The translations under genes and the position numbers were made by a program. Under the pieces are notes generated by a model. The model worked only from the letters and a program-made list of their open reading frames with translations. It made no database searches and was not told where the DNA came from. 50,779 nt of DNA, from assembly GCA_947066815.1 (NCBI GenBank), contig CAMSZT010000022.1:1-50779 (forward strand), in the 5' to 3' direction. This DNA is from an uncultured Lachnotalea sp. (GTDB lineage Bacteria; Bacillota; Clostridia; Lachnospirales; Lachnospiraceae). Shown one piece after another: positions 7,945-47,250 of this stretch. How positions within the stretch are numbered: position 1 is the stretch's first letter; every line of letters begins with the position of its first letter.

Positions 7945-8195
7945 AAAAAATTCTACCTGTGCGGTTGGAATATTGGATTCTGTCTCCGTCAGGGAACAGC
8001 CATTTGAAGCAGACGATAGGTGGATTTTGCAGATTTTGCGAGCATAGCGTCATCGAACCGGCTGACCCGATTTGATGGAGGCAGGTTCGATGACAATAGG
8101 CGGCGCAGCAAAATCAAAAAATCAACGTGTCTGCGAAACTGGCTGCTCCCTGACGGAGACATGAAAAACTTTCAACCGCACAGGTGGAAAAAATT
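7945..8195 (+). repeat. Palindromic repeat family 1, copy A (251 bp)
   Basis: First of three full copies in the window; it fills most of the gap 7925-8280. Ends carry CTGTGCGGTTG and its complement next to A/T runs. Inside are long paired arms (7981-8001 with 8141-8161) and an inner imperfect palindrome containing GCGAGCATAGCGTCATCG. No coding frame is convincing. The right edge overlaps the terminator of the convergent gene at 8281-8922. Confidence 0.85.
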
Positions 8196-8226
8196 GCCTG
8201 TTTTCATGATTGAGATCAGGCAATTT
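8188..8226 (-). terminator. Intrinsic terminator of the phosphoribosyltransferase-like gene
   Basis: On the minus strand a 10-bp stem AAATTGCCTG/CAGGCAATTT is followed by a run of six T. The T run is the A-rich right edge of repeat copy A, so the element and the terminator share bases. Confidence 0.8.
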
Positions 8227-8280
8227 CTTCGGACCAGGGATGATACACAGAACAGAGAAAACAAAGATCTATGTTGTCGC

Positions 8281-8922
8281 CTATAACTTGGAATATCCGT
8301 ATCCGTTTACAAAAGCGTCCAGCTTCTCCCCGTTCTTGCAGAAGGGGCAATTTTCAAATTCGTAGGCCTGGTAGCCGGGAATGTCCCTGACGGTGAAGGC
8401 GGAGACGATGGGGAAGCCCTGGATCACGTCGACGGCGCTGAAGAGAGAGCAGATGGCCGTCACGGTGCCGCCGTAGTAGCGGATGCACTCTAAGCTGCGG
8501 TTGATGGTCTGTCCGGTGGTGGTGGAGGCAAGGAGCAGCAGTACATGCTTGTTCCGGATGGAAGGAGCCAGGTTGTCCCGGAAGATCATCTGGTTGTTGC
8601 TGTTGAACTCCGGTGTGATCACGTAGACGGTCTCGTGGCTGTTGGTGGAGACAAAATCCCGGGCCTCCAGTTCGGAAGCCATGTAGGCGCCCACGACCTC
8701 GCAGCCGTCCATGCAGACGATGGTGTCGATGACGGTGGTGTTGACGATCTTGCCCACCAGGTTTTTGGCGACAGCCGTGGCTTCGCTGCATCTGGTCCGC
8801 AGGCCGGTCACGTCAATATAGTAGTTGACATGGGAATGGCTGGTGGCGAAGTGGCCGTGGATGGCGCGGAGGACAACGGTGTGATCATCTTTTGCATAAA
8901 ATTTCATGACGCGTGATTCCAT
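8281..8922 (-). CDS. Phosphoribosyltransferase-fold protein (orotate PRTase-like)
   Basis: A 213-residue protein with a PRTase-like core: a hydrophobic strand then ASTTTGQTINR, in the position of the PRPP-binding loop (usual form D-D-x-x-T-T-G-x-T). Upstream are VIDTIVCMDGCEVVGAYMA and later YYGGTVTAICSLF. The C-terminus has a CPFC pair that might bind metal. Family members are often annotated orotate phosphoribosyltransferase, but the acidic pair before the loop is replaced by Ala-Ser, so a catalytic role in pyrimidine synthesis is doubtful. ATG at 8922 has AGAGGGGG upstream; it has its own promoter and terminator. Confidence 0.7.
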   Translation of the reverse strand: MESRVMKFYAKDDHTVVLRAIHGHFATSHSHVNYYIDVTGLRTRCSEATAVAKNLVGKIVNTTVIDTIVCMDGCEVVGAYMASELEARDFVSTNSHETVYVITPEFNSNNQMIFRDNLAPSIRNKHVLLLLASTTTGQTINRSLECIRYYGGTVTAICSLFSAVDVIQGFPIVSAFTVRDIPGYQAYEFENCPFCKNGEKLDAFVNGYGYSKL

Positions 8923-8973
8923 AAAATACCCCCTCTGTAATCGTATTTTTAAAATTGAAAAGAATCTGTTTCT

Positions 8974-9002
8974 ATTTTACCGTACATATCGGAAACATGC
9001 AA
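8974..9002 (-). promoter_or_regulatory. Promoter of the PRTase-like gene
   Basis: Minus strand TTGCAT (8997-9002), 17-nt spacer, TAAAAT (8974-8979), about 45 nt of leader. No comparably good plus-strand promoter for prmA was found in this gap. Confidence 0.6.
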
Positions 9003-9058
9003 GAAATAATCTGAAAAAATACAAAGATGGAAATAAAGTTTGGAAAAGGGGAACCCTG

Positions 9059-10015
9059 ATGAAATGGAAGAAATATACCATCGCCACCACGACGGAGGCG
9101 GTGGACCTGATCGGCAGCATGCTGGAGGAACACGGGATCGAGGGGATCGAGATCGAGGATAATGTCCCGCTGACGGAGGCGGAGACAAAGGGAATGTTCA
9201 TCGACATCCTCCCGGAGCTTGGGCCGGACGAGGGGAAGGCGAAGGTCTCTTTCTACGTGGACGAGGGGGCGGAGGACGAGGCGCTTCTTGCGGGGATCCG
9301 GGAGGGGCTCTCGGAGCTTCGGCTGTTCGTGGACGTGGGGGAGGGGACCATCTCCTCCTCGGAGACGGAGGATAAGGACTGGGTCAACAACTGGAAGCAG
9401 TATTTTCATCCCTTTACGGTGGACGACATCCTGATCAAGCCCACCTGGGAGGAGGTGCCGAAGGAGCATGCGGACAAGCTGATGATCGAGATCGATCCGG
9501 GTACGGCCTTCGGGACCGGCTCCCATGAGACCACCCAGCTCTGCATCCGGCAGCTCCAGAAGTATCTGAAGGCCGGGGACCGGGTCCTCGACATCGGCAC
9601 CGGGAGCGGGATCCTGGCCATTGCGGCCCTGAAGCTGGGGGCTTCCTTTGCTTTTGGGACGGATGTGGACGAGAACGCGGTCCGGGCGGCCGGGGAGAAT
9701 GCCCGGGGCAACGGATTTTCAGAGGATGTGTTTGTCCTGGAAGAGGGGGATATCCTGACGGAGGCCGCCCTGCAGGAGCGGGTCGGCGAGGGGACTTACG
9801 ACGTGGCCGCGGCGAACATCCTGGCGCCGGTGATCATCCTGCTTGCGGGGGAGGCGGATCGGTATCTGAAGAAGGGCGGGATTTTCATCACCTCCGGCAT
9901 CATCGACACGAAGGAGGAGGATGTGAAGGCGGCCTTTGGGGCCAATCCGGCCTGGGAGCTTTTGGAGGTCACCAGACAGAAGGACTGGGTATCGGTGACA
10001 GTGAGGAAAAAGTAA
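9059..10015 (+). CDS. prmA: Ribosomal protein L11 methyltransferase
   Basis: A 318-residue SAM-dependent enzyme that methylates ribosomal protein L11. Visible: the N-terminal substrate-binding domain (about 1-120), then DPGTAFGTGSHETTQLC, the SAM site LDIGTGSGILAIAALKLGA, and AANILAPV near the active site. Length matches the family (about 295-320). ATG at 9059 has AAGGGG upstream; an in-frame start at 8906 is rejected because it overlaps the divergent gene and its promoter. The stop is one nt before rsmE, so the two are an operon, an order common in Firmicutes. Confidence 0.93.
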   Translation: MKWKKYTIATTTEAVDLIGSMLEEHGIEGIEIEDNVPLTEAETKGMFIDILPELGPDEGKAKVSFYVDEGAEDEALLAGIREGLSELRLFVDVGEGTISSSETEDKDWVNNWKQYFHPFTVDDILIKPTWEEVPKEHADKLMIEIDPGTAFGTGSHETTQLCIRQLQKYLKAGDRVLDIGTGSGILAIAALKLGASFAFGTDVDENAVRAAGENARGNGFSEDVFVLEEGDILTEAALQERVGEGTYDVAAANILAPVIILLAGEADRYLKKGGIFITSGIIDTKEEDVKAAFGANPAWELLEVTRQKDWVSVTVRKK

Positions 10016-10016
10016 G

Positions 10017-10754
10017 ATGTATCTGTTTTTTGTGGACGGCCGGGAGATCGGGGAGAAGACCGCGAGGATCACCGGTCCGGATGTGAACCATATCAAAAAT
10101 GTGCTCCGGATGAAGCCGGGGGACAAGCTTCGGATCAGCGACGGAGAGCGGCTCTGCTACAACTGCCGGATCGAAGCCTTTGAGGAGGATGGAGTGTTCC
10201 TCTCCCTGCTTTCCAGGGATGAGGACGGCACGGAGCTTCCGGCGAAGGTCGTGCTCTTCCAGGGGCTTCCCAAGGGCGACAAGATGGAGCTTGTGATCCA
10301 GAAAAATGTGGAGCTTGGCGTCTCCCGGATCGTGCCGGTGGCCACGAGACGGTCGGTGGTGAGGCTGGACGAAAAAAAGGCGGAGGCGAAGGTGCGCCGC
10401 TGGAATGCCATTTCCGAGAGCGCGGCCAAGCAGTCGAAACGGACCGTGGTACCGGAGGTGTCCCGGGTCCTGCCCTTTAAGGAGGCGGTGGACCTGGCGG
10501 CGGATTTTGACTGCAGGCTGTTTCCCTACGAGCACGCCGAGGGGATGGAGGAGACGAGAAGGCTCCTCTCCCAGGTGAAGCCGGGCATGCAGGTGGCGGT
10601 CTTCATCGGCCCGGAGGGCGGCTTTGAGGAGGATGAGGCAGCATATGCCAGGGAAAGGGGATTTACCCCCATCACCCTGGGGCGGCGGATCCTCCGGACC
10701 GAGACGGCGGGGATGGCCCTCCTCTCGGCCCTCATGTTCCAGCTGGAGAAATAG
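10017..10754 (+). CDS. rsmE: 16S rRNA m3U1498 methyltransferase
   Basis: A 245-residue SPOUT-class enzyme that methylates N3 of U1498 in 16S rRNA. Visible: N-terminal PUA-like part with HIKNVLRMKPGD, then KGDKMELVIQKNVELGV, and the C-terminal trefoil-knot SAM site FIGPEGGFEEDE followed by LGRRILRTETA. Length is typical (240-250). It begins directly after the prmA stop, with the ribosome site inside the prmA 3' end. It is followed by a cysteine desulfurase gene 87 nt downstream, possibly in the same transcript. Confidence 0.94.
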   Translation: MYLFFVDGREIGEKTARITGPDVNHIKNVLRMKPGDKLRISDGERLCYNCRIEAFEEDGVFLSLLSRDEDGTELPAKVVLFQGLPKGDKMELVIQKNVELGVSRIVPVATRRSVVRLDEKKAEAKVRRWNAISESAAKQSKRTVVPEVSRVLPFKEAVDLAADFDCRLFPYEHAEGMEETRRLLSQVKPGMQVAVFIGPEGGFEEDEAAYARERGFTPITLGRRILRTETAGMALLSALMFQLEK

Positions 10755-10841
10755 GGAACCGGAAAGAAAATGCGGCGTAACGAAAAGGGCGTCGGCCCGG
10801 GGAAGCAGTATGATCGGACGGATCAGGAAGACGAGGAAGCG

Positions 10842-11999
10842 ATGGAAGCATATTTAGATAATTCTGCGACGACGAAGGTGTTTGAGCCGGTAAAAGACAT
10901 TGTGGTGAAGGCCATGACGGAGGATTACGGGAATCCTTCCTCCCTGCATAAGAAGGGAGTGGAGGCGGAGCGTTACGTGAAGGCGGCGGCGGAATCGGTG
11001 GCAAAGACCCTCAGGGCAGCGCCGTCGGAGATCATTTTTACGTCCGGGGGCACGGAGTCCAACAATATGGCCGTCATCGGGGCGGCCAGGGCGATGAGAC
11101 GGGCCGGGAAGCATCTCATCACCACCACCATCGAGCATCCGTCCGTTTCCAATGTGTTCCGGTATCTGGAGGAGGAAGAGGGGTTTTCGGTGGATTACAT
11201 CCCGGTGGATGAAAACGGCCATGTGAGACAGGACGCCCTCCTTGCGGCCCTCCGGGAGGATACCACGCTGGTGTCGGTCATGTATGTCAACAATGAAATC
11301 GGCTCACGCAATCCCGTCGGGGAGATCGGGGCGGTGATCAAGAAAAAAAATCCCAAGACGCTGTTCCACGTGGACGCGATCCAGGCCTACGGAAAGTACC
11401 GGATCTGCCCGAAGCGGGAACAGATCGACCTCCTGTCGGTGAGCGGCCACAAGATCCACGGCCCCAAGGGGGTGGGGTTTCTGTATGTGAAGAGCGGCAC
11501 GAAGCTCCTGCCGGTGGTCTACGGGGGCGGCCAGCAGAAGGGCATGCGCTCCGGTACCCACAATGTGCCCGGCATTGCCGGGATGGGGGAGGCGGCCAGG
11601 CTGATCTACGAGGATCATGAGGAAAAGATACGGGCCATGTACGGTCTTAAAAAGCGGTTCGTGGAGCTGGTGACAGATCTTCCGGGGACTAAGATCAACG
11701 GACTGACCGGGGAGGAGTCGGCCCCCCACGTGGTGAGCGTGAGCTTTGAGGGGATCAAAAGCGAGGTGCTGCTCCACGCCCTGGAGGATAAGGGGATCTT
11801 TGTCTCCTCCGGCTCGGCCTGCTCCTCCAATCACCCGGCCCTCAGCGGGACCCTCCGGGGGATCGGCCTGAAGCGGGAGCTTTTGGACGCAACTCTCCGC
11901 TTCAGCTTCAGCGTCTTTACGACAGAGGAGGAGATCCGCTATACGGCAGAGGTTTTGAAAGAACTGCTGCCTATGCTGCGGAGATATGCGAGGCGCTAG
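10842..11999 (+). CDS. Cysteine desulfurase (NifS/IscS type)
   Basis: A 385-residue PLP enzyme that takes sulfur from cysteine as a protein persulfide. Visible: LDNSATT at the N-terminus, SGGTESNN, HPSVSNV, the PLP-lysine segment SVSGHKIHGPKG, and the catalytic-Cys loop SSGSACSSNHPALSGTL. ATG at 10842 is preceded by GAGGAAG and begins the conserved N-terminus; an in-frame ATG at 10770 would add 24 residues without family support. The next gene is thiI, the arrangement of Bacillus nifZ-thiI, so its likely job is to supply sulfur for 4-thiouridine in tRNA. A wider role in Fe-S assembly cannot be excluded. Confidence 0.92.
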   Translation: MEAYLDNSATTKVFEPVKDIVVKAMTEDYGNPSSLHKKGVEAERYVKAAAESVAKTLRAAPSEIIFTSGGTESNNMAVIGAARAMRRAGKHLITTTIEHPSVSNVFRYLEEEEGFSVDYIPVDENGHVRQDALLAALREDTTLVSVMYVNNEIGSRNPVGEIGAVIKKKNPKTLFHVDAIQAYGKYRICPKREQIDLLSVSGHKIHGPKGVGFLYVKSGTKLLPVVYGGGQQKGMRSGTHNVPGIAGMGEAARLIYEDHEEKIRAMYGLKKRFVELVTDLPGTKINGLTGEESAPHVVSVSFEGIKSEVLLHALEDKGIFVSSGSACSSNHPALSGTLRGIGLKRELLDATLRFSFSVFTTEEEIRYTAEVLKELLPMLRRYARR

Positions 12000-12058
12000 T
12001 ACTGCCTTGCACAGATAACGGTGAATAGCAGTACCTGATATTTGTATCAGGCAGTACC
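11998..12058. repeat. Hairpin in the nifS-thiI gap
   Basis: CTGATA-TTTG-TATCAG forms a tight stem. Outside it, TAGTACTGCC pairs with GGCAGTACC, so two hairpin forms are possible. The left arm begins in the stop codon of the desulfurase gene. There is no T run, so termination is unlikely; it may be a processing site or a small repeat. Confidence 0.45.
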
Positions 12059-12094
12059 AGCACCTAAAAAACAAAAAGACAGGAGGATTGGAGC

Positions 12095-13297
12095 ATGGCA
12101 GAGCGGGAAGGATTATTCCATGCATTTCTGATCAAATATGCGGAGATCGGGATCAAGGGGAAGAACCGGTATCTGTTCGAGGACGCCCTGATGCGTCAGA
12201 TCCGCTTTGCCCTCCGGGGGGCGGAGGGGAAGTTTTCGGTCCGGAAGGAGACGGGACGCATTTACGTGGAGGAGGAGGGCGCCTTCGATCCCGACGAGGT
12301 GACAGAGCGGCTGGGAAGGGTCTTCGGGATCTCCGGGATCTGTCCCATGGTCCAGTTTGAGTATAAAGAGTTTGCGGATATCCGGGAGCGGGTCGTGGAT
12401 TACGCGGGGAGGGTCCATCCGGAAGGGAACTTTACCTTCAAGGTGCAGACGAAGCGGGCCAACAAGGGATTTCCCATGGATTCCAATGAGATCAATGCCA
12501 GGCTGGGCGAGGCCCTGCTGGAAGCGTACCCGTCCCTTAAGGTCAATGTCCATGAGCCGGATGTGTTCTTTTACGTGGAGGTGCGGGAGCGGGTGAACCT
12601 TTATTCGAGGGTACTTCCCGGTCCCGGCGGCATGCCGGTGGGCACCAGCGGGAAGGCCATGCTGCTGCTCTCCGGGGGGATCGACAGCCCGGTGGCGGGG
12701 TACATGACGGCAAAGCGGGGCGTGAGCATTGATGCCGTCTACTTTCATGCGCCGCCCTACACCAGCGAGCGGGCGAAGCAGAAGGTGGTGGATCTGGCGA
12801 AGATCGTATCTCGGTATTCCGGCCCCATGAAGCTCCATGTGATCAATTTCACCGACATCCAGCTCTGCATTTACGACCAGTGCCCCCACGAGGAGCTGAC
12901 CATCATCATGCGGCGGTACATGATGCGGATCGCCGAGGCCATCGCGAAGGAGAGCGGCGCCCTGGCTCTGGTCACAGGGGAGAGCATCGGCCAGGTGGCC
13001 AGCCAGACCCTTCCCAGCCTGGCCTGTACCGGGGAGGTCTGTGACCTGCCGGTGATCCGTCCGGTCATCGGCTTTGACAAGCAGGAGATCGTGGACATCG
13101 CTCTGAAGATCGATACCTTTGAGACGTCCATCCAGCCCTTCGAGGACTGCTGCACGATCTTTGTGGCGAAGCACCCGGTGATCAAGCCCAACCGGAAGAT
13201 CATCCGCCGCTCCGAGGAGAAGCTGGCGGGAAAGATTGAAGAGATGGTAAAGACGGCATTGGAGACGAGGGAGGTCGTCGAGATCCAGGCCCCGTAG
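12095..13297 (+). CDS. thiI: tRNA 4-thiouridine synthetase
   Basis: A 400-residue enzyme that adenylates U8 of tRNA and receives sulfur to make 4-thiouridine; it can also serve thiazole synthesis in some species. Visible: N-terminal ferredoxin-like part (LIKYAEIGIKGKNR), a THUMP domain (about 60-165) and the PP-loop LLLSGGIDSPVAG (about 189-201). There is no C-terminal rhodanese domain, unlike the E. coli enzyme of about 480 residues; such short forms are usual in Firmicutes and rely on a dedicated desulfurase, which is the upstream gene. AGGAGG lies 8 nt before the ATG. Confidence 0.95.
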   Translation: MAEREGLFHAFLIKYAEIGIKGKNRYLFEDALMRQIRFALRGAEGKFSVRKETGRIYVEEEGAFDPDEVTERLGRVFGISGICPMVQFEYKEFADIRERVVDYAGRVHPEGNFTFKVQTKRANKGFPMDSNEINARLGEALLEAYPSLKVNVHEPDVFFYVEVRERVNLYSRVLPGPGGMPVGTSGKAMLLLSGGIDSPVAGYMTAKRGVSIDAVYFHAPPYTSERAKQKVVDLAKIVSRYSGPMKLHVINFTDIQLCIYDQCPHEELTIIMRRYMMRIAEAIAKESGALALVTGESIGQVASQTLPSLACTGEVCDLPVIRPVIGFDKQEIVDIALKIDTFETSIQPFEDCCTIFVAKHPVIKPNRKIIRRSEEKLAGKIEEMVKTALETREVVEIQAP

Positions 13298-13321
13298 TAT
13301 AGGTTTTTTATACAACGAAAA

Positions 13322-13349
13322 AACGGTCCCGCAGTCCTGCGGGACCGTT
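13322..13349. terminator. Bidirectional terminator between thiI and the HPr-like gene
   Basis: A perfect 13-bp stem, AACGGTCCCGCAG/CTGCGGGACCGTT, with a 2-nt loop. Leftwards it runs into TTTTTTCGTTG, a good tail for the minus-strand gene; rightwards the tail is weak. Confidence 0.85.
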
Positions 13350-13399
13350 GCCTGACCGACAGAGAAACTGTCACGGGAGAGAACGGATATAAGTACGTT

Positions 13400-13630
13400 T
13401 TATACCAGATAGGGCTTCAATGTCTCCAAGATGGCCTCCACGTTGTCCTCGGCGTGGATGTTTAAGTCGATGGGCTTCGAAAGATCCAGGCTGAAGATGC
13501 CCATGATGGACTTGGCGTCGATGACGTAGCGGCCGGAGACCAGATCGAAGTCATAGTCATATTTGGTGAGATCGTAGACAAAGGACTTGACCTTGTCGAT
13601 GGAATTTAAAGAAATCTGTACTGTTTTCAT
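13400..13630 (-). CDS. HPr-like protein lacking the active-site histidine
   Basis: A 76-residue protein of HPr size. The second half matches HPr around the regulatory serine (IDAKSIMGIFSLDLSKPIDL) and ends with AEDNVEAILETLKPYL. At the position of the usual GLHARPA loop it reads NSIDKVKSF, so there is no phospho-accepting His. It therefore cannot carry phosphate from enzyme I to sugar EIIs. Bacillus Crh also lacks this His but keeps the serine and acts as a CcpA co-regulator; a similar role is possible here but unproven. AGGGAGTATTCTC precedes the ATG; the gene has its own promoter and terminator. Confidence 0.8.
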   Translation of the reverse strand: MKTVQISLNSIDKVKSFVYDLTKYDYDFDLVSGRYVIDAKSIMGIFSLDLSKPIDLNIHAEDNVEAILETLKPYLV

Positions 13631-13696
13631 GAGAATACTCCCTTCTTTGCTGACGATAAAGTTCTGGAAAGGCTTCCCCCTCTCCGGTTCATTATA

Positions 13697-13725
13697 ATAC
13701 TAGACAGATTCGGGGGAAAAGTCAA
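13697..13725 (-). promoter_or_regulatory. Promoter of the HPr-like gene
   Basis: Minus strand TTGACT (13720-13725), 17-nt spacer, TAGTAT (13697-13702). A nearby TATAAT on the same strand is too far from this -35 box. Confidence 0.55.
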
Positions 13726-13758
13726 GAGGAGATTTTACTAAAAGTGAGGAATCAGGAT

Positions 13759-15180
13759 ATGGAAAACCGGAAAAAGAGGGCGGCCCTGCACAATCTGGGT
13801 TGCAAGGTCAACGCATATGAGACGGAGGCCATGGGCCAGCTTCTCTCGGAGGCCGGCTATGAGCTGGTCCCTTTCGAGGCGGAGGCGGAGGTTTACCTGG
13901 TCAATACCTGCAGCGTGACCAACATGGCCGACCGGAAATCCAGGCAGATGCTCCATCGGGCCAGGAGACAAAATCCCGGGGCGCTCGTCGTGGCGGCCGG
14001 CTGCTATGTCCAGGCACAGGCGGAGGAGATCTTAAAGAGCGGCGCGGCGGATCTTGTGATCGGGAATAACCAGAAGAAGAGGCTTGTAGAGCTTTTGTCC
14101 GCCTGTGAAAAAAAACGGCGGGCGGGAGAGCCGGAGCGGCCTTCTGACGGCGGGGAAAAGAAACGGGGTGCAGGAATGGGAGCGGTCCTTGACATTGCCC
14201 ATGAGAAGGAGTATGAGGAGCTCTCTCTTGTGCGGACGGCGGAGCACACCAGGGCCTTCATCAAGATCCAGGACGGCTGCGATCAGTTCTGCAGCTATTG
14301 CATCATTCCCTACACAAGGGGGAGGATCCGCAGCCGGAGGCCGGAGGATCTTCTGGAGGAGATTCTCCGGCTTGCGGGAGCCGGCTACCGGGAGGTGGTG
14401 CTGACCGGGATCCATCTGTCCTCCTACGGGAGGGATTTTGATCTACCGGTTTCTCTTCTGGAGATGATTGAACGGGTGGCTGAGATTCCCGGGATCGAGA
14501 GGATCCGTCTGGGCTCCCTGGAACCTAGGATCGTCACGGAGGAGTTCGTAAAAGGGCTCTCGGCCATCGGGGAGGTCTGCCCGCATTTTCATCTGTCGCT
14601 GCAGAGCGGCTGCAACCGGACCTTAAAGAGGATGAACCGCCATTATACCACGGAGGAATATGCGGCCTGCTGCCGCCTGTTGCGGAGCTATTACGACCAC
14701 CCGGCCATCACCACCGACGTGATCGTGGGTTTTCCGGGGGAGACGGAGGAGGAATTTTCAGAGACGCTCTCCTTCCTTGAAAAGATCGGATTTTATGAGA
14801 TGCATATTTTCAAATATTCCAGAAGACAGGGGACGAAGGCGGCGGCCATGTCCTCCCAGGTGCCGGAGAAGGTCAAGGCAGAGCGGAGCCGCAGGGCCCT
14901 GGCCCTTTCGGCGAAGCTTTCCGAAGACTTTCGGAAGTATTATGAGGGAACGGTTCGGGAGATCCTCCTGGAGGAGGAGCAGGAGATCGGCGGCAGACGG
15001 TATATGACCGGGTTCACGAGGGAGTATGTGAAGGCGGCCGCGGAGCTTCCGGCCGCAGGGGTTCCCGGCCCCGCGGCGGAAGAGGTGTTTTCTCCGGGAC
15101 AGATCCTTCCCGTCCGCCTTTCCGGCCGGAGAGAGGCAGGCTGGGAGGAACTCCTCTTCGCAGAGCCCCTCATGAAGTGA
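13759..15180 (+). CDS. mtaB: tRNA t6A37 methylthiotransferase MtaB
   Basis: A 473-residue radical-SAM methylthiotransferase converting t6A37 to ms2t6A37 in tRNAs reading ANN codons. The UPF0004 cluster cysteines are in NLGCKVN (about 15), NTCSVT (about 51) and GCYVQ (about 81); the radical-SAM triad is C-X3-C-X2-C in DQFCSYCIIPYTRG (about 174-181). A C-terminal TRAM-like part follows. GCKVN rather than GCxxN of MiaB/RimO supports MtaB. ATG at 13759 was preferred over the in-frame GTG at 13744 because of the ribosome site. Its TGA stop overlaps the left end of repeat copy B. Confidence 0.92.
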   Translation: MENRKKRAALHNLGCKVNAYETEAMGQLLSEAGYELVPFEAEAEVYLVNTCSVTNMADRKSRQMLHRARRQNPGALVVAAGCYVQAQAEEILKSGAADLVIGNNQKKRLVELLSACEKKRRAGEPERPSDGGEKKRGAGMGAVLDIAHEKEYEELSLVRTAEHTRAFIKIQDGCDQFCSYCIIPYTRGRIRSRRPEDLLEEILRLAGAGYREVVLTGIHLSSYGRDFDLPVSLLEMIERVAEIPGIERIRLGSLEPRIVTEEFVKGLSAIGEVCPHFHLSLQSGCNRTLKRMNRHYTTEEYAACCRLLRSYYDHPAITTDVIVGFPGETEEEFSETLSFLEKIGFYEMHIFKYSRRQGTKAAAMSSQVPEKVKAERSRRALALSAKLSEDFRKYYEGTVREILLEEEQEIGGRRYMTGFTREYVKAAAELPAAGVPGPAAEEVFSPGQILPVRLSGRREAGWEELLFAEPLMK

Positions 15181-15429
15181 AAATTTCCATCTGTGCGGAG
15201 GGAGGCTTTGTATGTCTTCGTCGGGGAGCCGCCGCTTGTAGCAGACGATAGGCAGATTTTGCAGATTTTGCGAGCATAGCGTCATCGGATTGGCTGACCC
15301 GGTTTGATGGAAGCCGGTCCGATGACAATAGGCGGCGCAGCAAAATCAAAAAATCAACGTGTCTGTGAAAGCAGCGGCTCCCTGACGGAGACAGAACAGA
15401 CGATTCCAGCCGCACAGGGGAAAATTTTC
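15179..15429 (+). repeat. Palindromic repeat family 1, copy B (251 bp)
   Basis: Same length and orientation as copy A, with terminal GAAAATTT...CTGTGCGG and its complement, and arms 15213-15233/15373-15393. The first two bases are the last two of the mtaB stop. Substitutions relative to copy A are largely matched on the opposite arm. The remaining 15430-15563 holds only the ireB promoter. Confidence 0.85.
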
Positions 15430-15503
15430 CGGCCACCCGCGCTTTTTCGATGATTTTCTGACGGAAAAGACGGGATAATGTGAAGAAACTGGAAGAAAAC
15501 CCC

Positions 15504-15532
15504 TCGACAGGCCGGAAAATTTGTATTAGAAT
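15504..15532 (+). promoter_or_regulatory. Promoter of ireB-ruvX-DUF1292
   Basis: TCGACA (15504-15509), 17-nt spacer, TAGAAT (15527-15532). The predicted start near 15539 excludes the upstream in-frame start at 15480. Confidence 0.5.
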
Positions 15533-15563
15533 AGAAATACAAGCATGTAAGGACGTGAAAAAA

Positions 15564-15827
15564 ATGGGTGATATACACAGAACACAATTTTTTAATCCTT
15601 CCCAGGAGAATAAGATGGAGGCGGGAGAGATCCTGGCGAAGGTCTACGCGGCTCTGACGGAGAAGGGCTACAATCCGATCAGCCAGATCGTCGGTTATAT
15701 CATGTCGGGAGATCCCACGTATATTACCAGCTATCAGAGCGCGAGGAGCCTGATCACGAAGCTGGAGCGGGACGAGATCCTGGAGGAGTTAGTGCAGGTC
15801 TATATTGAAAGCAAGCTGAAGGGTTAA
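15564..15827 (+). CDS. ireB: IreB family regulatory phosphoprotein (UPF0297)
   Basis: An 87-residue small cytoplasmic protein with the family core EKGYNPISQIVGYIMSGDPTYITS and KLERDEILEELV. In Enterococcus, IreB is a target of the Ser/Thr kinase IreK and affects cephalosporin resistance; elsewhere it is widely conserved with an unclear role. ATG at 15564 gives the usual length, with AAGGACGTG upstream. It is first in the conserved three-gene block ireB-ruvX-DUF1292 (Bacillus yrzL-yrrK-yrzB) and ends 9 nt before the chosen ruvX start. Confidence 0.92.
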   Translation: MGDIHRTQFFNPSQENKMEAGEILAKVYAALTEKGYNPISQIVGYIMSGDPTYITSYQSARSLITKLERDEILEELVQVYIESKLKG

Positions 15828-15836
15828 GTGCCGGAT

Positions 15837-16253
15837 ATGCGTATCATGGGACTGGACTTTGGCTCCAGAACGGTAGGAGTGGCTGTCAGCGATCCTCTTG
15901 GGATCACGGCCCAGGGCGTGGAAACTGTGGAGAGGCCGCAGGAGAATAAGCTGAGAAGGACCCTTGCCCGTCTGGAGGAGTTGATCGGAGAATACCAGGT
16001 AGAGAAGATCGTGGTGGGCTGTCCGAGACATATGAACGGAGATTTCGGGGAGCGGGCGGAAAAGTCCAGGGACTTTGCGGAGAAGCTAGCGACAAGGACC
16101 GGCCTTCCCGTCGTGCTATGGGACGAGCGGCTGACCACGGCGGCGGCGGAGCGGGTGCTTATGGAGGCGGGAGTCCGCAGAGAGCGCCGGAAGGACTATG
16201 TGGATAAAATAGCGGCAGTGTTTATCTTACAGGGATATTTGGATTCCCTGTGA
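15837..16253 (+). CDS. ruvX: RuvX/YqgF Holliday junction resolvase-like nuclease
   Basis: A 138-residue RNase H-fold protein. Visible: [19 protein letters not shown] at the start with the first catalytic Asp, [16 protein letters not shown], and [15 protein letters not shown] with the Asp/Glu pair. YqgF proteins act in 16S rRNA 5'-end processing and have been proposed as Holliday junction resolvases. An in-frame GTG at 15828 sits closer to the ribosome site (AAGGG), so the start could be nine nt earlier. Second gene of the ireB block. Confidence 0.92.
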
Positions 16254-16316
16254 TTTCTTTGCGTGCGGATACCGGAAGGAAGCCTGTCAGCGAAACTGAC
16301 GGATATCCGGCGTGCA

Positions 16317-16342
16317 GGCAGGGGAACGAGGCGTTCCCTGCC
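16317..16342. repeat. Hairpin in the ruvX-DUF1292 gap
   Basis: GGCAGGGG-AAC pairs with GTTCCCTGCC around a short loop. Just before it GTCAG-CGAAA-CTGAC forms a smaller hairpin flanked by GCGGATACC and GGATATCC. The gap 16254-16369 therefore looks like another small structured insertion in a block that is usually tight. No gene is seen. Confidence 0.4.
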
Positions 16343-16369
16343 GATCGTACAAAGCAGAAAGAAGGTTTT

Positions 16370-16627
16370 ATGGAAGACAGGATCGTTTTGACCTCGGAGG
16401 ACGGGGAAGAGATTTCCTGCTACGTGCTGGAGGAGACCAGAGTGGCGGGCTGTAATTATGTGCTTGTAGCGACGGAAGAGGAGGGGGACGGCGAGTGCCT
16501 GATCCTGAAGGATATATCGGACGCGGAGGACGCGGAGGCTGTGTATGAGATCGTGGAGGAGGAAAAGGAACAGCAGTACCTGGCACGGATCTTCAACGAG
16601 CTTCTGGAGGACGTGGACATCCGATAG
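16370..16627 (+). CDS. DUF1292 domain protein
   Basis: An 85-residue acidic protein with the DUF1292 pattern: VLTSEDGEEISCYVLEE, then YVLVATEEE, then LIKD-type strand and an acidic tail. It corresponds to Bacillus YrzB and is the usual third member of the ireB-ruvX block, although here it is 116 nt from ruvX because of intervening palindromes. Function unknown. AGAAAGAAGG precedes the ATG. The TAG stop shares its last base with repeat copy C. Confidence 0.88.
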   Translation: MEDRIVLTSEDGEEISCYVLEETRVAGCNYVLVATEEEGDGECLILKDISDAEDAEAVYEIVEEEKEQQYLARIFNELLEDVDIR

Positions 16628-16924
16628 AAAATTTTTAATCTGTGCGGTTGTAATATTGGATCCTGTCTTCGTCAGGGAACAACCATTTGAAGCAGACGAT
16701 AGGCAGATTTTGCAGATTTTGCGAGCATAGCGTCATCGAACCGGCTGACCCGCTTTGATGGAAGCCGGTTTGATGACAATAGGCGGCGCAGCAAAGCCGA
16801 AAAACTGTCACTGGCAGTTTTCCGGCACGCTATGGCGAATCAAAAAATCAACGTGTCTGCGAAACTGGTTGCTCCCTGACGAAGACACACGGAAAACCTT
16901 CAACCGCACAGACGAAAAATTTTA
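16627..16924 (+). repeat. Palindromic repeat family 1, copy C (298 bp)
   Basis: Same orientation as copies A and B, with the longest end match (AAAATTTTT..TCTGTGCGGTTG on both arms) and arms 16664-16684/16867-16887 that are complementary apart from one A/C mismatch. It carries about 45 extra bases on the right inner arm, including GCCGAAAAACTG/CAGTTTTCCGGC. It fills most of the gap 16628-16972; nothing else is seen there except the rnj ribosome site. Confidence 0.88.
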
Positions 16925-21855: not shown

Positions 21856-21928
21856 GGTGATTGCGAAACTCAAAAATTTGTCGAATATTCTGGCAATATT
21901 TCCGCAATTTCATGTTTTGCAATTACCT
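21856..21928. repeat. Palindromic repeat family 2, short copy (73 bp)
   Basis: Begins GGTGATTGCGAAAC and ends GTTTTGCAATTACC, with AATATT-CTGGC-AATATT at the centre. The left half matches the end of the 210-bp element at 47011-47220, so it looks like a deleted form of the same family. It lies just upstream of the M16C gene. Confidence 0.75.
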
Positions 21929-37305: not shown

Positions 37306-39396
37306 TCAGTGCAGATGGATCACATTGGGGGCGGAGGAAAAGGTGAGTACCGAGATCCCCCTTCCTTCCAAAGTTTTTTTCAGCCGCCAGGCATCATAGC
37401 CTCTGTTTTCCTGGAGCAGCCAGCCCGGGGCATCCATGAAAACCGTTCCCGGTGAGAGGACGCCGTAAAAATCAAGAGTGGCTCCCCAGTTGCCGTGATG
37501 GGCGGCCTGGACGTAGTCCGCGTTCAGTTCGTCTCTGTGGCGTGTGAGGAGAGCAATCTCGGCTTCCTTCTGCATGTCGGAGAGAAAGAGCATTTTTTCC
37601 TGTTTTCCTGCGAGAAGGAAGACCATGGAACCATTGTTGCACAGGTCCGCGTCGAGCTCGTCCGTCGTCTCATCCCAGGCATGGAGCACCTGAAGCTTCA
37701 GCCCCAGCAGGTCGAAACATTCATTTTCAGAGACATAGTGGATGTTTTCAAGATCTTTTGTCAGGCGGCGGAATTTTTCATAGACCTCAAACTGGTCATA
37801 GGCCCGCGCGGTTTCCCGGTACCGCTCCTCATTGACCGGCACCGCATAGATCTGATCGATGCGGATATTTCCAGGCTCTTCCAGGATCGCATTGAGGGCT
37901 CCCACATGATCCGGGTGGGGATGGGTGACGATCCAGGCGCTCACGCGGCCGCCGTGCTTTTGGATGATCTCCCGCAGCATGGGGGCGTCGTTCTCATATC
38001 CGCCGTCGATGACGGCCAGATTTCCCTTCTGGTCCTCGAGGGTGTAGCACATGAGCTGCCTTCCGTTTGCTCTGCCGTACCGGGTGACCGTCACAGAGTC
38101 GGCTTTTTTGAAATAGGTTCTGTTCACGGGGCCGGGAGCCTCCCCGCCTTTTTGGACCAGGCGGATCTGGATAGCCTCCAGTCTCTTGGCGTAGCCCTCG
38201 CTGCCGGCCGGCTCCCCGCTTTTGGCCCAGCCAGTCCAGCCGAAGGTCTGGCAGTGGACCCGGTAATAAATATCGTACTGTTCTGCCATGGCTCCGGTCA
38301 GACGGATGCGGATAGCCTCCAGCCGTTTGGCCTCCCCGGTGGTCCCGGAAAGGGCGCCGTCCCTCACCCAGTCCTGCCACCCATAGGTCTGCACGTGGGT
38401 ACAGTACTCCACACTGCCCGCCGTGGTGGAATGATTTTCCAGGCGGATGCGGATGCCCTCCAGCCGTTTGGCCTTTCCGGTGGTCCCGTTTGCCTGTCCG
38501 TTGGAGGACTCCGCCTGCCAGCCGTAGGTCTGCACATGGGTCTGATAGGTGACCTTCTGATTCTCCCGATAAGCGTTTTCGGTATCTCCGGGAGCCTCCC
38601 CGCCCTTTTGGATCAGACGGATCTGGATGGCCTCCAGTCTCTTGGCGTAGCCTTCGCTGCCGGCCGGCTCCCCGTTTTTGGCCCAGCCGGTCCAGTCAAA
38701 GGTCTGGCAGTGGACCCGGTAATAGATATCGTACCGCTCTGCCATGTCCCCGGTCAGGCGGATCTGGATGGCCTCCATCCGTTTTCCCTGCCCCATAGTC
38801 CCGCTTTCTGCCCCGTCTTTCACCCAGTCAAGCCAGCCGTAGGTCTGTACATGGGTACGGTACTCCACACCTCCGGAGAGGGAGGATACCGGATCCAGGC
38901 AGATACGGACAGCCTCCAGCCGTTTCGACTGGCCGTGGGTCCCGCTTTCCGCTCCGTTTTCTCTCCAGTCCTGCCAGCCGAGGGACTGGACATGGGTCAT
39001 ATAGGAGATCCGGGGAGGCTCTGCCCCATAGAGAACTGCTTCTTCCGAGAGGACCGATCTCGATATGGTTTCTCCTATCTCCGGCGCGGTTTCTTCTGCC
39101 TCCGGTATGGTTCCTGCTGTTTTTGGCGGGACATCTCCGTTCCCGGAAGCTGTTTCTTCTATTATAATAGCAGATTCTGTTCCGTCCGCGGCAGGTATGG
39201 TTTCCTCCTCATCCGCCCCTGCGTGGATGTCTGCGGCTCCTGCCGGGGCCGTCTCCCCACCGGCGGGCGTCTCCTGCAGGATCACAGCCTGTGCCTCCCC
39301 TGCCGTCTCTGCCTGAGCGGGGATCCCGGACAGGATGAGGGCAGGCAGGAGCCCGGCGATCATAAAAAATCGTTTGTTCCAGAACCTTTTTTTCAA
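37306..39396 (-). CDS. Secreted ChW-repeat protein with metallo-beta-lactamase domain
   Basis: A 696-residue exported protein. A signal peptide (KKRFWNKRFF, hydrophobic run, PAQA|E) is followed by a Thr/Glu/Ala/Pro-rich linker (to about 130), six ChW-type repeats of about 45-50 residues (each with GWQDW or similar, G..SGT.G..KRLEAI.IRL), and a C-terminal ComEC/Rec2-like metallo-beta-lactamase domain: VIDGGYENDAPML, THPHPDHVGAL (about 489), FLSDMQ and AAHHGNWG. The domain usually acts as a hydrolase on nucleic acid or phosphoesters, but the substrate is unknown. ChW repeats are thought to mediate surface or carbohydrate contacts. TTG start with AAGGAGGAAGC. A long opposite-strand frame is a shadow of the repeats. 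Confidence 0.85.
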   Translation of the reverse strand: MKKRFWNKRFFMIAGLLPALILSGIPAQAETAGEAQAVILQETPAGGETAPAGAADIHAGADEEETIPAADGTESAIIIEETASGNGDVPPKTAGTIPEAEETAPEIGETISRSVLSEEAVLYGAEPPRISYMTHVQSLGWQDWRENGAESGTHGQSKRLEAVRICLDPVSSLSGGVEYRTHVQTYGWLDWVKDGAESGTMGQGKRMEAIQIRLTGDMAERYDIYYRVHCQTFDWTGWAKNGEPAGSEGYAKRLEAIQIRLIQKGGEAPGDTENAYRENQKVTYQTHVQTYGWQAESSNGQANGTTGKAKRLEGIRIRLENHSTTAGSVEYCTHVQTYGWQDWVRDGALSGTTGEAKRLEAIRIRLTGAMAEQYDIYYRVHCQTFGWTGWAKSGEPAGSEGYAKRLEAIQIRLVQKGGEAPGPVNRTYFKKADSVTVTRYGRANGRQLMCYTLEDQKGNLAVIDGGYENDAPMLREIIQKHGGRVSAWIVTHPHPDHVGALNAILEEPGNIRIDQIYAVPVNEERYRETARAYDQFEVYEKFRRLTKDLENIHYVSENECFDLLGLKLQVLHAWDETTDELDADLCNNGSMVFLLAGKQEKMLFLSDMQKEAEIALLTRHRDELNADYVQAAHHGNWGATLDFYGVLSPGTVFMDAPGWLLQENRGYDAWRLKKTLEGRGISVLTFSSAPNVIHLH

Positions 39397-42002: not shown

Positions 42003-44175
42003 AGACGGCCGCGGCCGCAGAAGTTACAGAGACGATCCTGAGAGACGCGGTCAGGAGGAGACGATACGGAATGAGAAGCCCCCGAGGCATTTTCTCAGAT
42101 ATATGAAAAAAAAGCTGGCGCTCACCTTTTTATTGGTGGCGCTGGTTTTGATTGGGCTGACGGTGGCCGTGGGTTTTATCGGGAAAGAAAAGGGAGAGGA
42201 GTACGGGCAGCGGGTGCTTTCCCAGCAGACGGCCTCCTCCGGCGTCATCCCCTTCCGGAGAGGGGAGATCACCGACCGCAACGGCACGGTGCTTGCGTCC
42301 AACGAGCCGGTCTACAACCTGATCCTGGACCCCTCGGTGATCGGCTCCGGTGAGGATATCAAAGGGCCGACTCTGGACCTTCTTGTGGAATGCTACGGCT
42401 ATGACCGGGCCGATCTGGAGAAGCTGATAGCGGATCAGCCGAACAGCCAGTACATCCGCTACACGCTCCGGATGAGCGGGGAGGAGCGGGATAAATTCCT
42501 GGCGAGAGAGACGGAGATCAACGAAAATCTGGAAATCAGGGACAAGATCGACGGCGTCTGGTTTGAGACGGAATACAAACGGATCTATCCCTACTCGACC
42601 CTGGCCTGCGACCTGATCGGATTTTCCTCAAAGGACGGGTCCTTTGGCAGCTACGGGATCGAGCAGTATTACAATGAAAGGCTGGCCGGGATCTCCGGAA
42701 GGACCTACCGCTATATCAACGAGGACTCCGACGCGGAGCAGGTGATCCGGGACGCAGTGGACGGGCAGACCGTCGTGTCCACCATCGACGTGAACCTGCA
42801 GACCATCGTGGAGGAGCAGATCAAAAAATTCAATGAGGAGATCGGATCGAAAAATACGGCGGTGGTGATCATGGATCCCGACAACGGGGAGGTCCTCGCC
42901 ATGGCCTCCTACCCTTATTTTGACCTGAACGATCCCTCCGACCTGACCGCCAGCGGCTATTACACAGAGGAGGCTGTGGCCGCCATGAGCGAGGAGGAAA
43001 AGAAGGACGCCCTGGCGGGGCTGTGGGCCAATTATGTGACCCAGTCCCTCTATGAGCCGGGCTCCACGGCAAAGCCCCTGACCATCGCGGCGGGACTGGA
43101 GGAGGGGAAGCTTGCCGAGTCCAACCGCTATTACTGCGACGGCGGCTGGGACTACGCGGAGGGGAAGCGGATCAGCTGCCATAAGCTGTCGGGCCACGGG
43201 GAGCTGGATCTGGAGGGCGCCATTGTGGAGTCCTGCAACGACGCCCTGATCCAGATCGGCCAGCAGATCGGAAAGGAAGTCTTCTGCAAGTATCAGCCGG
43301 TTTTCGGCCTTGGGACACGGACCGGGATCGACCTGCCCGGTGAGGAGAACGGGATCTTAAAGAAGGAAGAGGACATGTCGGAGATCGACCTGGTGACCAA
43401 TTCTTTCGGCCAGAATTTTGACGCCACGGTGATCCAGATGGCGGCGGCCCACTGTTCCCTGATCAACGGAGGCCATTATTATACGCCCCATGTGGTGAAA
43501 GAGATCCTAAACCCCGACGGGTCCGTGGCGGAGACCATGGAGGGGACCCTGGTGCGGGAGACCGTCAGCGAGAGCACGTCAGAATTTTTAAAGAAAGCCA
43601 TGACGGCCATGGTAGATGAGCAGAGTCCCTGGTCCACGGCCATCCCCGGCTATGAGATCGGCGGAAAGACCGGCACGGCGGAGAAGCTTCCGAGGAAAGA
43701 CCGGAAATATGTGGTGTCCTTCACCAGCTTCCTGCCGGCCAGCGATCCGGAATATTTTATGATGGTGGTCATCGACGAGCCCAATGTGGAGGACCAGTCC
43801 ACCGGCGGCCATGCCACCAATCTGACCCGCTCCCTTTGGGAGGCCGTCATCCCTTATCTGAACCTGCTCCCCACCAGGGATACGGGGGAGACGCCTTCCG
43901 GGGAGACCGCGCCGGAGACACCCGCGGGGACGGCAGAGCCGGCAGGCGGGGAAGCCCCAGAGGGGAACGGAACGCCGGAAAACAGGGAAGCCCCGGAGGG
44001 GAACGGAACGCCGGAAAACGGAGAAGCCCCGGAGGGGAACGGAACGCCGGAAAACGGAGAAGCCCCGGAGGGGAATGAAGCGCCCGGAAACGGGGAGGCA
44101 CCTGAGGGGGAAGCACCCACAGAGGGAGAGAACGGGGCCTACAGCGATGGAATTTTTCAGGGAGACTTTGAATAA
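41980..44175 (+). CDS. pbpB: Penicillin-binding protein 2B-type division transpeptidase
   Basis: A 731-residue class B PBP that cross-links septal peptidoglycan. A basic cytoplasmic head (about 1-40) is followed by one membrane segment (LALTFLLVALVLIGLTVAVG), a PBP dimer domain with GEITDRNGTVLASN, and the transpeptidase: STAK (Ser about 362), SCN (about 418) and KTGTAEK (Lys about 564). After residue 630 comes an unusual tail of 12-residue EAPEGNGTPENG repeats. The start at 41980 overlaps ftsL and has a weak ribosome site; ATG at 42103 just before the membrane helix is the alternative. No PASTA domains. Confidence 0.87.
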   Translation: MKRSQRNRDGRGRRSYRDDPERRGQEETIRNEKPPRHFLRYMKKKLALTFLLVALVLIGLTVAVGFIGKEKGEEYGQRVLSQQTASSGVIPFRRGEITDRNGTVLASNEPVYNLILDPSVIGSGEDIKGPTLDLLVECYGYDRADLEKLIADQPNSQYIRYTLRMSGEERDKFLARETEINENLEIRDKIDGVWFETEYKRIYPYSTLACDLIGFSSKDGSFGSYGIEQYYNERLAGISGRTYRYINEDSDAEQVIRDAVDGQTVVSTIDVNLQTIVEEQIKKFNEEIGSKNTAVVIMDPDNGEVLAMASYPYFDLNDPSDLTASGYYTEEAVAAMSEEEKKDALAGLWANYVTQSLYEPGSTAKPLTIAAGLEEGKLAESNRYYCDGGWDYAEGKRISCHKLSGHGELDLEGAIVESCNDALIQIGQQIGKEVFCKYQPVFGLGTRTGIDLPGEENGILKKEEDMSEIDLVTNSFGQNFDATVIQMAAAHCSLINGGHYYTPHVVKEILNPDGSVAETMEGTLVRETVSESTSEFLKKAMTAMVDEQSPWSTAIPGYEIGGKTGTAEKLPRKDRKYVVSFTSFLPASDPEYFMMVVIDEPNVEDQSTGGHATNLTRSLWEAVIPYLNLLPTRDTGETPSGETAPETPAGTAEPAGGEAPEGNGTPENREAPEGNGTPENGEAPEGNGTPENGEAPEGNEAPGNGEAPEGEAPTEGENGAYSDGIFQGDFE
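43951..44094 (+). repeat. 36-bp tandem repeat in the pbpB tail
   Basis: Four 36-nt units encode EAPEGNGTPENG-type repeats, with a partial fifth unit after. The first three are almost identical at the DNA level, which points to recent expansion by slippage or recombination. The tail is outside the catalytic domain, on the outer side of the membrane. Confidence 0.85.
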
Positions 44176-47002: not shown

Positions 47003-47010
47003 TATTAGTC

Positions 47011-47220
47011 AGGTAATTGCGAAACTTAAAATTTGCTGAATATTCTGACAATATTTCCGGGAAAAGCCCTCTGCGCCGTGGAAGCAAGACCAGGGAAGGC
47101 AGGAGGAACTCTTTTCCGAGTGACTTCTGTGGTTCTGGGCTTGCTGGAACGTTTGGCGCTGCAGGCTTTGGACGGACATATTGGCAGAATATTCACGCAA
47201 TCTCGCATTTCGCGATCACC
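47011..47220. repeat. Palindromic repeat family 2, long copy (210 bp)
   Basis: The ends are imperfect inverted repeats of about 48 bp, starting AGGTAATTGCGAAA on the left and, on the complement, AGGTGATCGCGAAA on the right, each continuing to a shared GAATATTCTG..AATAT block. The interior of about 115 bp has no good frame. It lies 8 nt after the mraY stop and breaks the usual tight mraY-murD spacing. Confidence 0.8.
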
Positions 47221-47250
47221 TACTTGATATAGGATAGGAAAGGAGAGACG

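Follow-up and report, generated by a model that had tools for sequence, protein, structure and literature searches.

A dispersed palindromic repeat of Lachnospiraceae with a covarying, strand-polar core and copy-specific complementary arms

The stretch of DNA analysed here (the window, 50,779 nt), which belongs to a genome designated G000 (97.6% complete), carries three large palindromic elements and raises the question of whether such elements are mobile DNA, structured RNA or something of both. All three lie on the plus strand, where the initial annotation had placed them: copy A at 7945–8195, copy B at 15179–15429, starting at the stop codon of an open frame that ends at 15180, and copy C at 16627–16924, starting at the stop codon of an open frame that ends at 16627. 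Copy A consists of flanking 8-mers (the direct repeat AAAAAATT on either side), a terminal inverted repeat (CTACCTGTGCGG/CCGCACAGGTGG), arms and a core at 8008–8134 (R1, 138.2 bits), whose plus strand carries the G–U polarity described below. The core of copy B occupies 15240–15366 on the same strand (R1, 136.2 bits). That of copy C, at 16691–16864, also on the plus strand, is interrupted by a small extra hairpin that makes the element longer than A and B; R1 matches 16691–16818 (99.3 bits), and the rest, including the 43-nt hairpin-forming insert at about 16796–16838 (plus strand), was read from the sequence. Matches to copy C28 of G010 and copy C45 of G009 extend across this insert. The main arms read GGGAACAGCC/GGCTGCTCCC in A, GGGAACAACC/GGTTGCTCCC in C and GGGAGCCGCC/GCGGCTCCC in B, and the outer end changes from TGTCTCCG/CGGAGACA in A to TGTCTTCG/CGAAGACA in C, both as first reported; in B, TGTCTTCG stands opposite CGGAGACA, leaving one non-Watson–Crick step. 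The three copies fold far better than dinucleotide shuffles (z = −13.1, −12.5 and −11.7, with no equally good shuffle in three runs), and the reverse strand of copy A also has a strong fold (z = −13.6).

The absence of further copies had been named at the outset as grounds for dropping this reading, and copies proved plentiful. A model of the core (~129 nt) gave 50 matches in G000, comprising 40 distinct places (some partial), three of which are A, B and C, and ten opposite-strand readings. Related copies occur in seven of the 11 genomes of the genus, at 0 to 66 matches per genome (G001, G002, G003 and G008 have none), and in 16 of 250 Lachnospiraceae genomes including G000, that is, in 15 other genera. 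One genome of another family carries copies among the 392 searched in the order, and a search of 398 genomes of the phylum revealed no carrier beyond that one. A known Rfam family was ruled out: no model of release 15 exceeded its gathering cut-off for the window elements, which were also searched with E values up to 5, and none matched the cores at 16 loci sampled in other genera, where three matches (a T-box and two tRNAs) all fell outside the cores. Phage or plasmid carriage was likewise rejected: searches for it gave no match, and two exact gapped core patterns were absent from viral contigs.

For the comparisons below we assembled 122 copies from 105 plus 21 matches after dropping two partial and two duplicate rows; this set is a sample of the known copies, with G007 and others only partly represented, and the core of copy C was lengthened by hand to include its insert. 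In an alignment of 28 diverse copies (A5), 34 of 38 core pairs change on both sides and 94.5% of cells are paired, values that lean towards this structure, a model of which guided the A5 alignment. None of 500 shuffles, which leave relatedness in, was as good, and slid versions of the pairing reached 35–45%. The internal loops of the core are conserved across genera. Core polarity was counted in the 108 copies that passed filtering and over pairs found on both strands, a choice of pairs from one strand being biased; among these, G–U mismatches outnumber A–C mismatches by 101 to 15 (columns, 17 to 0), and over the union of pairs the counts are 162:74 (columns, 23 to 5). Similarly, the own-strand core fold is better than that of the opposite strand in 111 of the 122 copies. 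The signal arises from the wider copy set, as the 19-sequence seed alignment A2 shows no polarity in the pairs shared by both strands (11:11). Covariation of the core stems together with this polarity suggests that one strand of the core folds as a single-stranded nucleic acid, and supports selection for a fold there.

These features are also what would be expected of a host-serving RNA, regulatory or involved in processing, that had spread by duplication, with the arms as a variable closing stem. Conserved loops, covariation and polarity all fit such a family, as does gene context: of 89 copies for which genes were called on either side, 67 lie between tandem, 18 between convergent and four between divergent genes, so that most are 3′ of genes. 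The orientation of the core relative to genes is not fixed, however, with 40 distinct tandem copies in sense and 24 in antisense, and core polarity is similar in the two groups (57:25 and 32:15, respectively). Such an RNA would also have to range in number from 0 to 66 per genome among members of a single genus, invert in place and tolerate arms without polarity in the frame of the core, as described next, and we consider it an unlikely explanation.

The arms behave differently from the core. Their sequence is peculiar to each copy or subfamily, and yet the two arms of one copy match closely, with a mean duplex energy of −79.0 kcal/mol compared with −38.9 kcal/mol between arms of different copies (119 copies). 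In 13 pairs of orthologous copies the arms have drifted apart while remaining mutually matched: we counted 34 matched double changes where 3.0 were expected. The count covers those arm positions that align as partners in each of the two orthologues, a restriction that may enrich for matched pairs. Arm changes are thus paired beyond expectation, as the initial annotation had required. In the frame of the core, arm mismatches show no strand polarity (238 G–U and 243 A–C; 116 copies after filtering). In the frame of the tandem flanking genes, however, the ratio is 155:82, and with one copy per locus it is 130:59, with 30 copies against 8 and 12 ties. This gene-strand effect is missing in the core, although it lies in the same presumed transcripts. 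On the gene strand, keto bases make up 0.523 of flanking intergenic DNA and 0.596 of fourfold sites in window genes, so part of the skew may stem from mutational bias rather than selection.

Comparison of orthologous loci revealed that the core is inverted in place at five of 19 (L067/L187, L077/L171, L060/L182, L195/L208 and L095/L091), a count that leaves out unplaced one-flank matches such as L069/L173 and L057/L089. A further candidate, L065/L177, was discarded, L177 being the orthologue of L072. Template switching between inverted repeats has been described as homogenising the arms and inverting the spacer (PMC8604942), and as creating and maintaining hairpins (PMC8794818). The unpolarised matched changes of the arms and the in-place inversion of the core are both recognised footprints of this process. 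Template switching can yield matched arms without selection on a fold, so matched arm changes alone are no proof of RNA and a kept fold does not follow for the arms. The initial annotation, which did not separate core from arms, had taken matched changes on both arms to mean that the folded form is kept; a kept fold finds support in the core, but for the arms the conclusion does not follow, given their 238:243 mismatches, their matched divergence and the five inverted cores.

How the units reach new sites was approached through their ends and their empty sites. Terminal inverted repeats of the CTACCTGTGCGG/CCGCACAGGTGG type are present in the subfamily of A, B and C, and other copies lack these ends while having long inverted arms. 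In a scan of 25 candidates for target duplications, from which six without the end motif were dropped, direct repeats of at least 7 bp flank seven of 19 copies, compared with 56 of 342 controls. Those at A, B, C, L002, L003 and L018 are of 8 or 9 bp, and at L160 (in G010) an inverted repeat takes the place of the direct repeat. The shared ends, these direct repeats, the AT-rich sites and the presence of outer parts without a core at L037, L038 and L039 would suit a conventional DDE-transposon MITE that duplicates 8 bp of its target and carries a hairpin as passenger. That account is doubtful, as it covers only the GTGCGG-ended subfamily while 100 of 116 tagged copies have other arms that reach other genera; moreover, over all copies the direct repeats do not clearly exceed control, and a parent transposon was not found in the four genomes searched (see below).

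Site A is empty in six congeners that match both flanks, and site C in 10 of 10, with flank matches 31–89 nt apart. At site B the sister genome G010 retains an apparent remnant of the right arm, in a comparison of the plus-strand congeners. Empty sites were also found in relatives for L058 (eight genomes), L060 (five), L062 (six) and L056 (one); their best inverted repeats are unrelated and score 4–10, compared with 17–21 for the arms of the filled sites. Whole units, arms included, thus occupy four sites at which relatives have no matching hairpin. These sites bear directly on the proposal that terminator hairpins already in place receive the core in their loops, to which the position of the copies within hairpins, the tracking of gene strand by arm mismatches and a bare hairpin in G004 at L057, resembling the outer arms of G000, all lend some colour. 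As a general rule, insertion into ready-made terminator loops is rejected by the empty sites that lack a matching hairpin, and T runs of at least four past the arms are just mildly enriched (23% of 117 gene-facing sides, 18% of 80 others and 9% of 339 background 18-mers); we regard the proposal as improbable.

The many copies, their presence and absence between related species, the whole units at sites where relatives have no matching hairpin, covariation, polarity, inversion and matched arms together favour a non-autonomous palindromic mobile element that has a strand-polar core, behaves like BOX/ERIC and would be mobilised in trans by a putative enzyme. We give this sequence-based reading a probability of roughly 60%, jointly with two of its parts: that the unit is a conserved ~129-nt core of one strand polarity between two complementary arms free in sequence, and that A, B and C belong to a recently expanded subfamily of these short mobile palindromes, which are about 180–300 nt in length. 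Both initial guesses, MITE or structured RNA, are then partly right. Under the mobile-element reading, a trans-supplied enzyme would recognise the core folded as a single strand, either ssDNA or RNA, and copy or move the unit; during replication, template switching from arm to arm would keep the two complementary despite divergence and flip the core; and units inserted 3′ of genes would have their arms transcribed into mRNA as hairpins, perhaps tuned there. More tentatively, the family could be a structured nucleic acid that spreads selfishly in Lachnospiraceae: one core strand, whether RNA or ssDNA, would signal its own propagation, and the arms would form an informationless cradle, kept matched by template switching, in which the core flips freely while the host, on its own strand, puts the arms to use as mRNA hairpins.

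Known repeats share parts of this anatomy, here compared from published descriptions rather than by consensus sequence for BOX, RUP, SPRITE and ERIC. BOX, RUP and SPRITE of Streptococcus pneumoniae are likewise small, highly paired, apparently non-autonomous intergenic repeats with modular structure and nested insertion, SPRITE lying near gene 3′ ends (PMC3049150). They are defined by shared ends or modules, whereas the present family conserves its core and has mostly copy-specific arms; in-place inversion and strand polarity are unmentioned for them in the sections of that article consulted. ERIC and other prokaryotic MITEs, as described in PMC10969869, are also imperfect palindromes, mostly intergenic with some in 3′ UTRs, with possible effects on mRNA and highly variable copy number among relatives; unlike them, the present family has yielded no parent insertion sequence that shares its ends, its target duplications are at best tentative, and its core is more conserved than its arms. 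Template-switch hairpins similarly show homogenised arms, multiple matched changes and a loop or spacer inverted in place, but the spacers reported are short, up to 7–8 nt in rRNA and a few bp in yeast genes (PMC8794818, PMC8604942), whereas a ~129-nt spacer flips here within a dispersed repeat family. Curated RNA families in Rfam (release 15) resemble the cores in having conserved internal loops within covarying stems, and differ in that the cores match no model. Covariation in long palindromes alone does not prove RNA, and by combining a polar core, arms unpolarised in its frame and in-place inversion, this single element offers a natural test bed for selection on RNA structure and arm copying by template switching, usually confounded causes of compensatory change.

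The family points to a family-wide mobile element with a putative mobilising activity, for which the literature searches returned no description. The elements are too short for a transposase gene of their own. A search of four genomes with the exact end motif found no inward-facing pair around a likely transposase and no parent transposon with the same ends: ten of the 12 inward pairs under 10 kb are at most 315 nt apart, a 5.2-kb pair lies within ordinary coding genes, and a 6.2-kb pair, read at its ends, spans two short elements. Core polarity and the inverted pairs that copies form in G146, G216 and G393 recall REP-like repeats mobilised by a Y1 (RAYT/IS200-type) transposase, an enzyme that acts on single-stranded hairpins of one polarity. 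Y1_Tnp (PF01797) occurs in just two of the 11 genus genomes, G002 (no copies) and G010 (fragments), and is absent from six carriers (G000, G004, G005, G006, G007 and G009); we rejected this mechanism on its absence from the 97.6% complete G000 and consider it highly improbable. An autonomous element between neighbouring copies was discounted as well, the open frames there in G006, G216, G146, G393, G130 and G567 appearing by eye to be ordinary chromosomal ones. The exception, in G130, is a phage-type tyrosine integrase (PF00589) between two inverted copies, whose only relative in a tblastn search of a sample of the other element loci lies at the overlapping locus L127.

The palindromic elements A (7945–8195), B (15179–15429) and C (16627–16924) lie at the positions reported in the initial annotation, and the arm sequences it quoted are present in all three. 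Folding predicted one long hairpin per element, with z between −11.7 and −13.1. Element A is flanked by converging open reading frames, and B and C each lie between same-strand open reading frames, their starts coinciding with stop codons at 15180 and 16627, respectively. The genome bearing the window (contig C22) comprises 3.44 Mb and is 97.6% complete. Matched changes on the two arms had been read as a sign that the fold is kept, in either a MITE or a structured RNA; the observation was confirmed, and the interpretation was upheld in part and sharpened to that of a core that is strand-polar and invertible, enclosed by arms that are free in sequence and change in concert.

A nucleotide search of the same genome returned 60 matches, many to part of the query only. 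The outer part (CCACCTGTGCGG...CCGCACAGGTGG) was also found without the middle at loci L037, L038 and L039, and the middle part, a core of ~129 nt, was also found inside quite different arms. In several copies, among them L016 (1602–1692), L018, L007, L012 and L085, the core is split at GAGCAT/AGC by a third layer, a double hairpin of ~90 nt (GCACTTAGCGACCGTAG... type), apparently one element nested in another. Long matches to the outer part were confined to the genome itself (G000) and the congeners G010 and G009, with a 51-nt match in the congener G004. A first covariance model of the core, built from 19 copies, matched 40 distinct places in G000, some of them partial, and 7 of 11 genomes in the genus, with 5 to 66 matches each when opposite-strand readings are counted. 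Under the stricter filters used for searches over 40 genomes, which make the following counts lower bounds, matches were obtained in at least 16 of 250 genomes of the family sample (G000 and 15 others, each from another genus) and, using a second model built from 28 diverse copies, in at least 11 of 392 order-level genomes, of which ten, G000 included, belong to the family and one, G393, to a different family, and G000 was the sole match among 398 genomes of the phylum sample. At L056, the intact copy is accompanied, ~130 nt to the left of its core, by the apparent degraded remains of an earlier core (CCGCAGACGATAGGAAGGTTTTGC...). Cores occur in inverted pairs ~190–210 nt apart, like paired REP arrangements, at L120 (genome G216) and L112/L128 (genome G146), and a T-box leader (L111:1222–1419, genome G056) is located ~80 nt upstream of a core.

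The copies sit in long hairpins whose arm sequences are peculiar to the individual copy or to its subfamily. Across 119 copies, the mean duplex energy of a copy's own arms was −79.0 kcal/mol, whereas that of a left arm with another copy's right arm was −38.9 kcal/mol; the weakest own-arm duplex of any single copy reached −31.5 kcal/mol. Orthologous copies in G000, G010, G009 and other congeners were identified by their flanking sequence. In 13 orthologous pairs covering 352 arm base pairs, 34 base pairs carried changes in both partners that preserved complementarity, compared with 3.0 expected if the sides were independent; 36 carried a change in one partner, and 4 differed in other ways. Identity between orthologues ranged from 52% to 100% in the inner arms and was mostly 80–99% in the distal flanks. 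The core was inverted in place, with unchanged flanks, at 5 of the 19 loci compared (L067/L187, L077/L171, L060/L182, L195/L208, with one flank only, and L095/L091), where core identity was 89–96% in its own orientation versus 75–81% in the other. At L060, G000 and G010 share one core orientation and G009 has the opposite. Template switching between inverted repeats is described as leaving a double footprint of arm homogenisation and spacer inversion (PMC8604942), and this route is described as able to create and keep perfect hairpins (PMC8794818); the loops inverted in these accounts are short, so that applying them to a spacer of ~129 nt is an extrapolation.

The core itself appears to retain a fold. 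Among 28 diverse copies, 34 of 38 core pairs showed changes in both partners that maintained pairing, and 94.5% of cells paired, in an alignment that was fitted to a model of the same structure and leans towards it. None of 500 shuffles reached any of five covariation measures, and pairing fell to 35–45% when the partner was slid by 1 to 3 columns. When 19 copies were aligned with MAFFT, both partners had changed in 18 of 38 pairs. Internal loops are kept across genera (GATAGGMAG facing AACGTG, and CGAGCATAGC facing ATAGGCGRCGCAG), the stems between them differ widely, and many copies outside the genus carry an apex of the TGAGCC...GGCGAGTTTGC type.

Whether one strand is the one that folds was assessed from mismatches, since G-U is better borne than A-C in a single-stranded fold and A-C is the G-U of the other strand. 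Among 108 distinct copies aligned with MAFFT, core pairs found by RNAalifold on both strands held 101 G-U and 15 A-C (17 versus 0 columns), and the union of pairs from both strands held 162 and 74 (23 versus 5 columns). The ratio was 19:6 in G000, G010, G009 and G004 (union 93:53) and 38:8 in G007, G006 and G005 (union 50:8), and in 111 of 122 copies the core's own strand folded better than the opposite strand. Counting against polarity, the 19-copy seed alignment alone gave 11:11. The core was polar in its own frame whatever the gene direction (sense 57:25, antisense 32:15, convergent 25:14). Read in the frame of the core, arm mismatches were non-polar (238 G-U versus 243 A-C, 116 copies), and they were polar in the frame of tandem flanking genes (155:82), as called by a custom codon-usage script rather than a standard gene finder. 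With tandem genes, the arm ratio was 82:46 beside a sense core and 36:73, in the core's frame, beside an antisense core. Counting one copy per orthologous locus, it was 130:59 in the gene frame, with 30 copies for, 8 against and 12 ties. The arms and the core therefore answer to different strands; mutation may contribute to the gene-strand bias of the arms. G-T is also better tolerated than A-C in DNA, so polarity alone fits RNA and single-stranded DNA alike.

Orthologous sites lacking the element point to movement. Element C was missing in 10 of 10 congeners, with flank matches 31 to 89 nt apart. Element A was missing in all six congeners matching both flanks (G002, G004, G005, G006, G007 and G010; gap 102 to 129 nt), and in G010, G004, G006 and G007 more is absent there than the element itself. 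At the B site, G010 retains an apparent right-arm remnant, and no element was seen by eye in G001, G004, G005, G006 and G007. Units were likewise absent at L058 in 8 congeners, L060 in 5, L062 in 6 and L056 in G005. Where the unit is absent, the highest-scoring inverted repeats reached 4 to 10 and bore no relation to the arms, which score 17 to 21 at filled sites; the arms therefore either travelled in together with the core or arose at insertion. The sole contrary-looking case is L057, where a bare hairpin in G004 matches the outer arms. Each of A, B and C is bordered by a direct repeat of 8 or 9 bp, and across 19 copies direct repeats of 7 bp or more showed a weak excess (7 of 19 versus 56 of 342 in a control sharing their AT-rich flanks).

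The exact end motif formed 12 inward pairs within 10 kb in four genomes. Ten were at most 315 nt apart; of the others, one of 5.2 kb is situated in ordinary coding genes and one of 6.2 kb encompasses two short elements. Y1 transposase was absent from 6 of 7 carrier genomes of the genus, with fragments in G010, the family had no match in phage and plasmid collections, and two exact core patterns had none in viral contigs. The lack of a recognisable parent among end-motif pairs of up to 5.2 kb, together with the absence of Y1 from most carriers in the genus and of any phage or plasmid match, suggests that the element would be moved by a candidate enzyme supplied in trans. In genome G130, a phage-type tyrosine integrase gene (PF00589; L279:2417–3385) lies between two inverted core copies; it has no relative among the other loci collected.

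In titles and abstract openings of the papers retrieved on intergenic palindromes, MITEs, REPs and mobile or structured RNAs of Lachnospiraceae and Clostridia, no description of this family was found, and one may still be published. The nearest kinds, as far as those sources describe them, are the BOX, RUP and SPRITE repeats (PMC3049150) and MITE/ERIC repeats (PMC10969869). By its behaviour, the family resembles a BOX/ERIC-type palindromic mobile repeat, a likening that assigns it to no named family. What appears new is the division of labour between a conserved, polar, invertible core and the concerted, free-sequence arms around it. The window also holds a second dispersed inverted repeat of the AATATT..GGAAATATTG type (47002–47230 and 21884–21928), of which a ~114-nt unit from the L062 flank matches numerous further sites in G000, G009 and G010, as well as six copies of a ~102-nt unit spaced mostly by 141 nt (38158–38997) and two arrays of 36-nt repeats (385–636 and 43914–44093).
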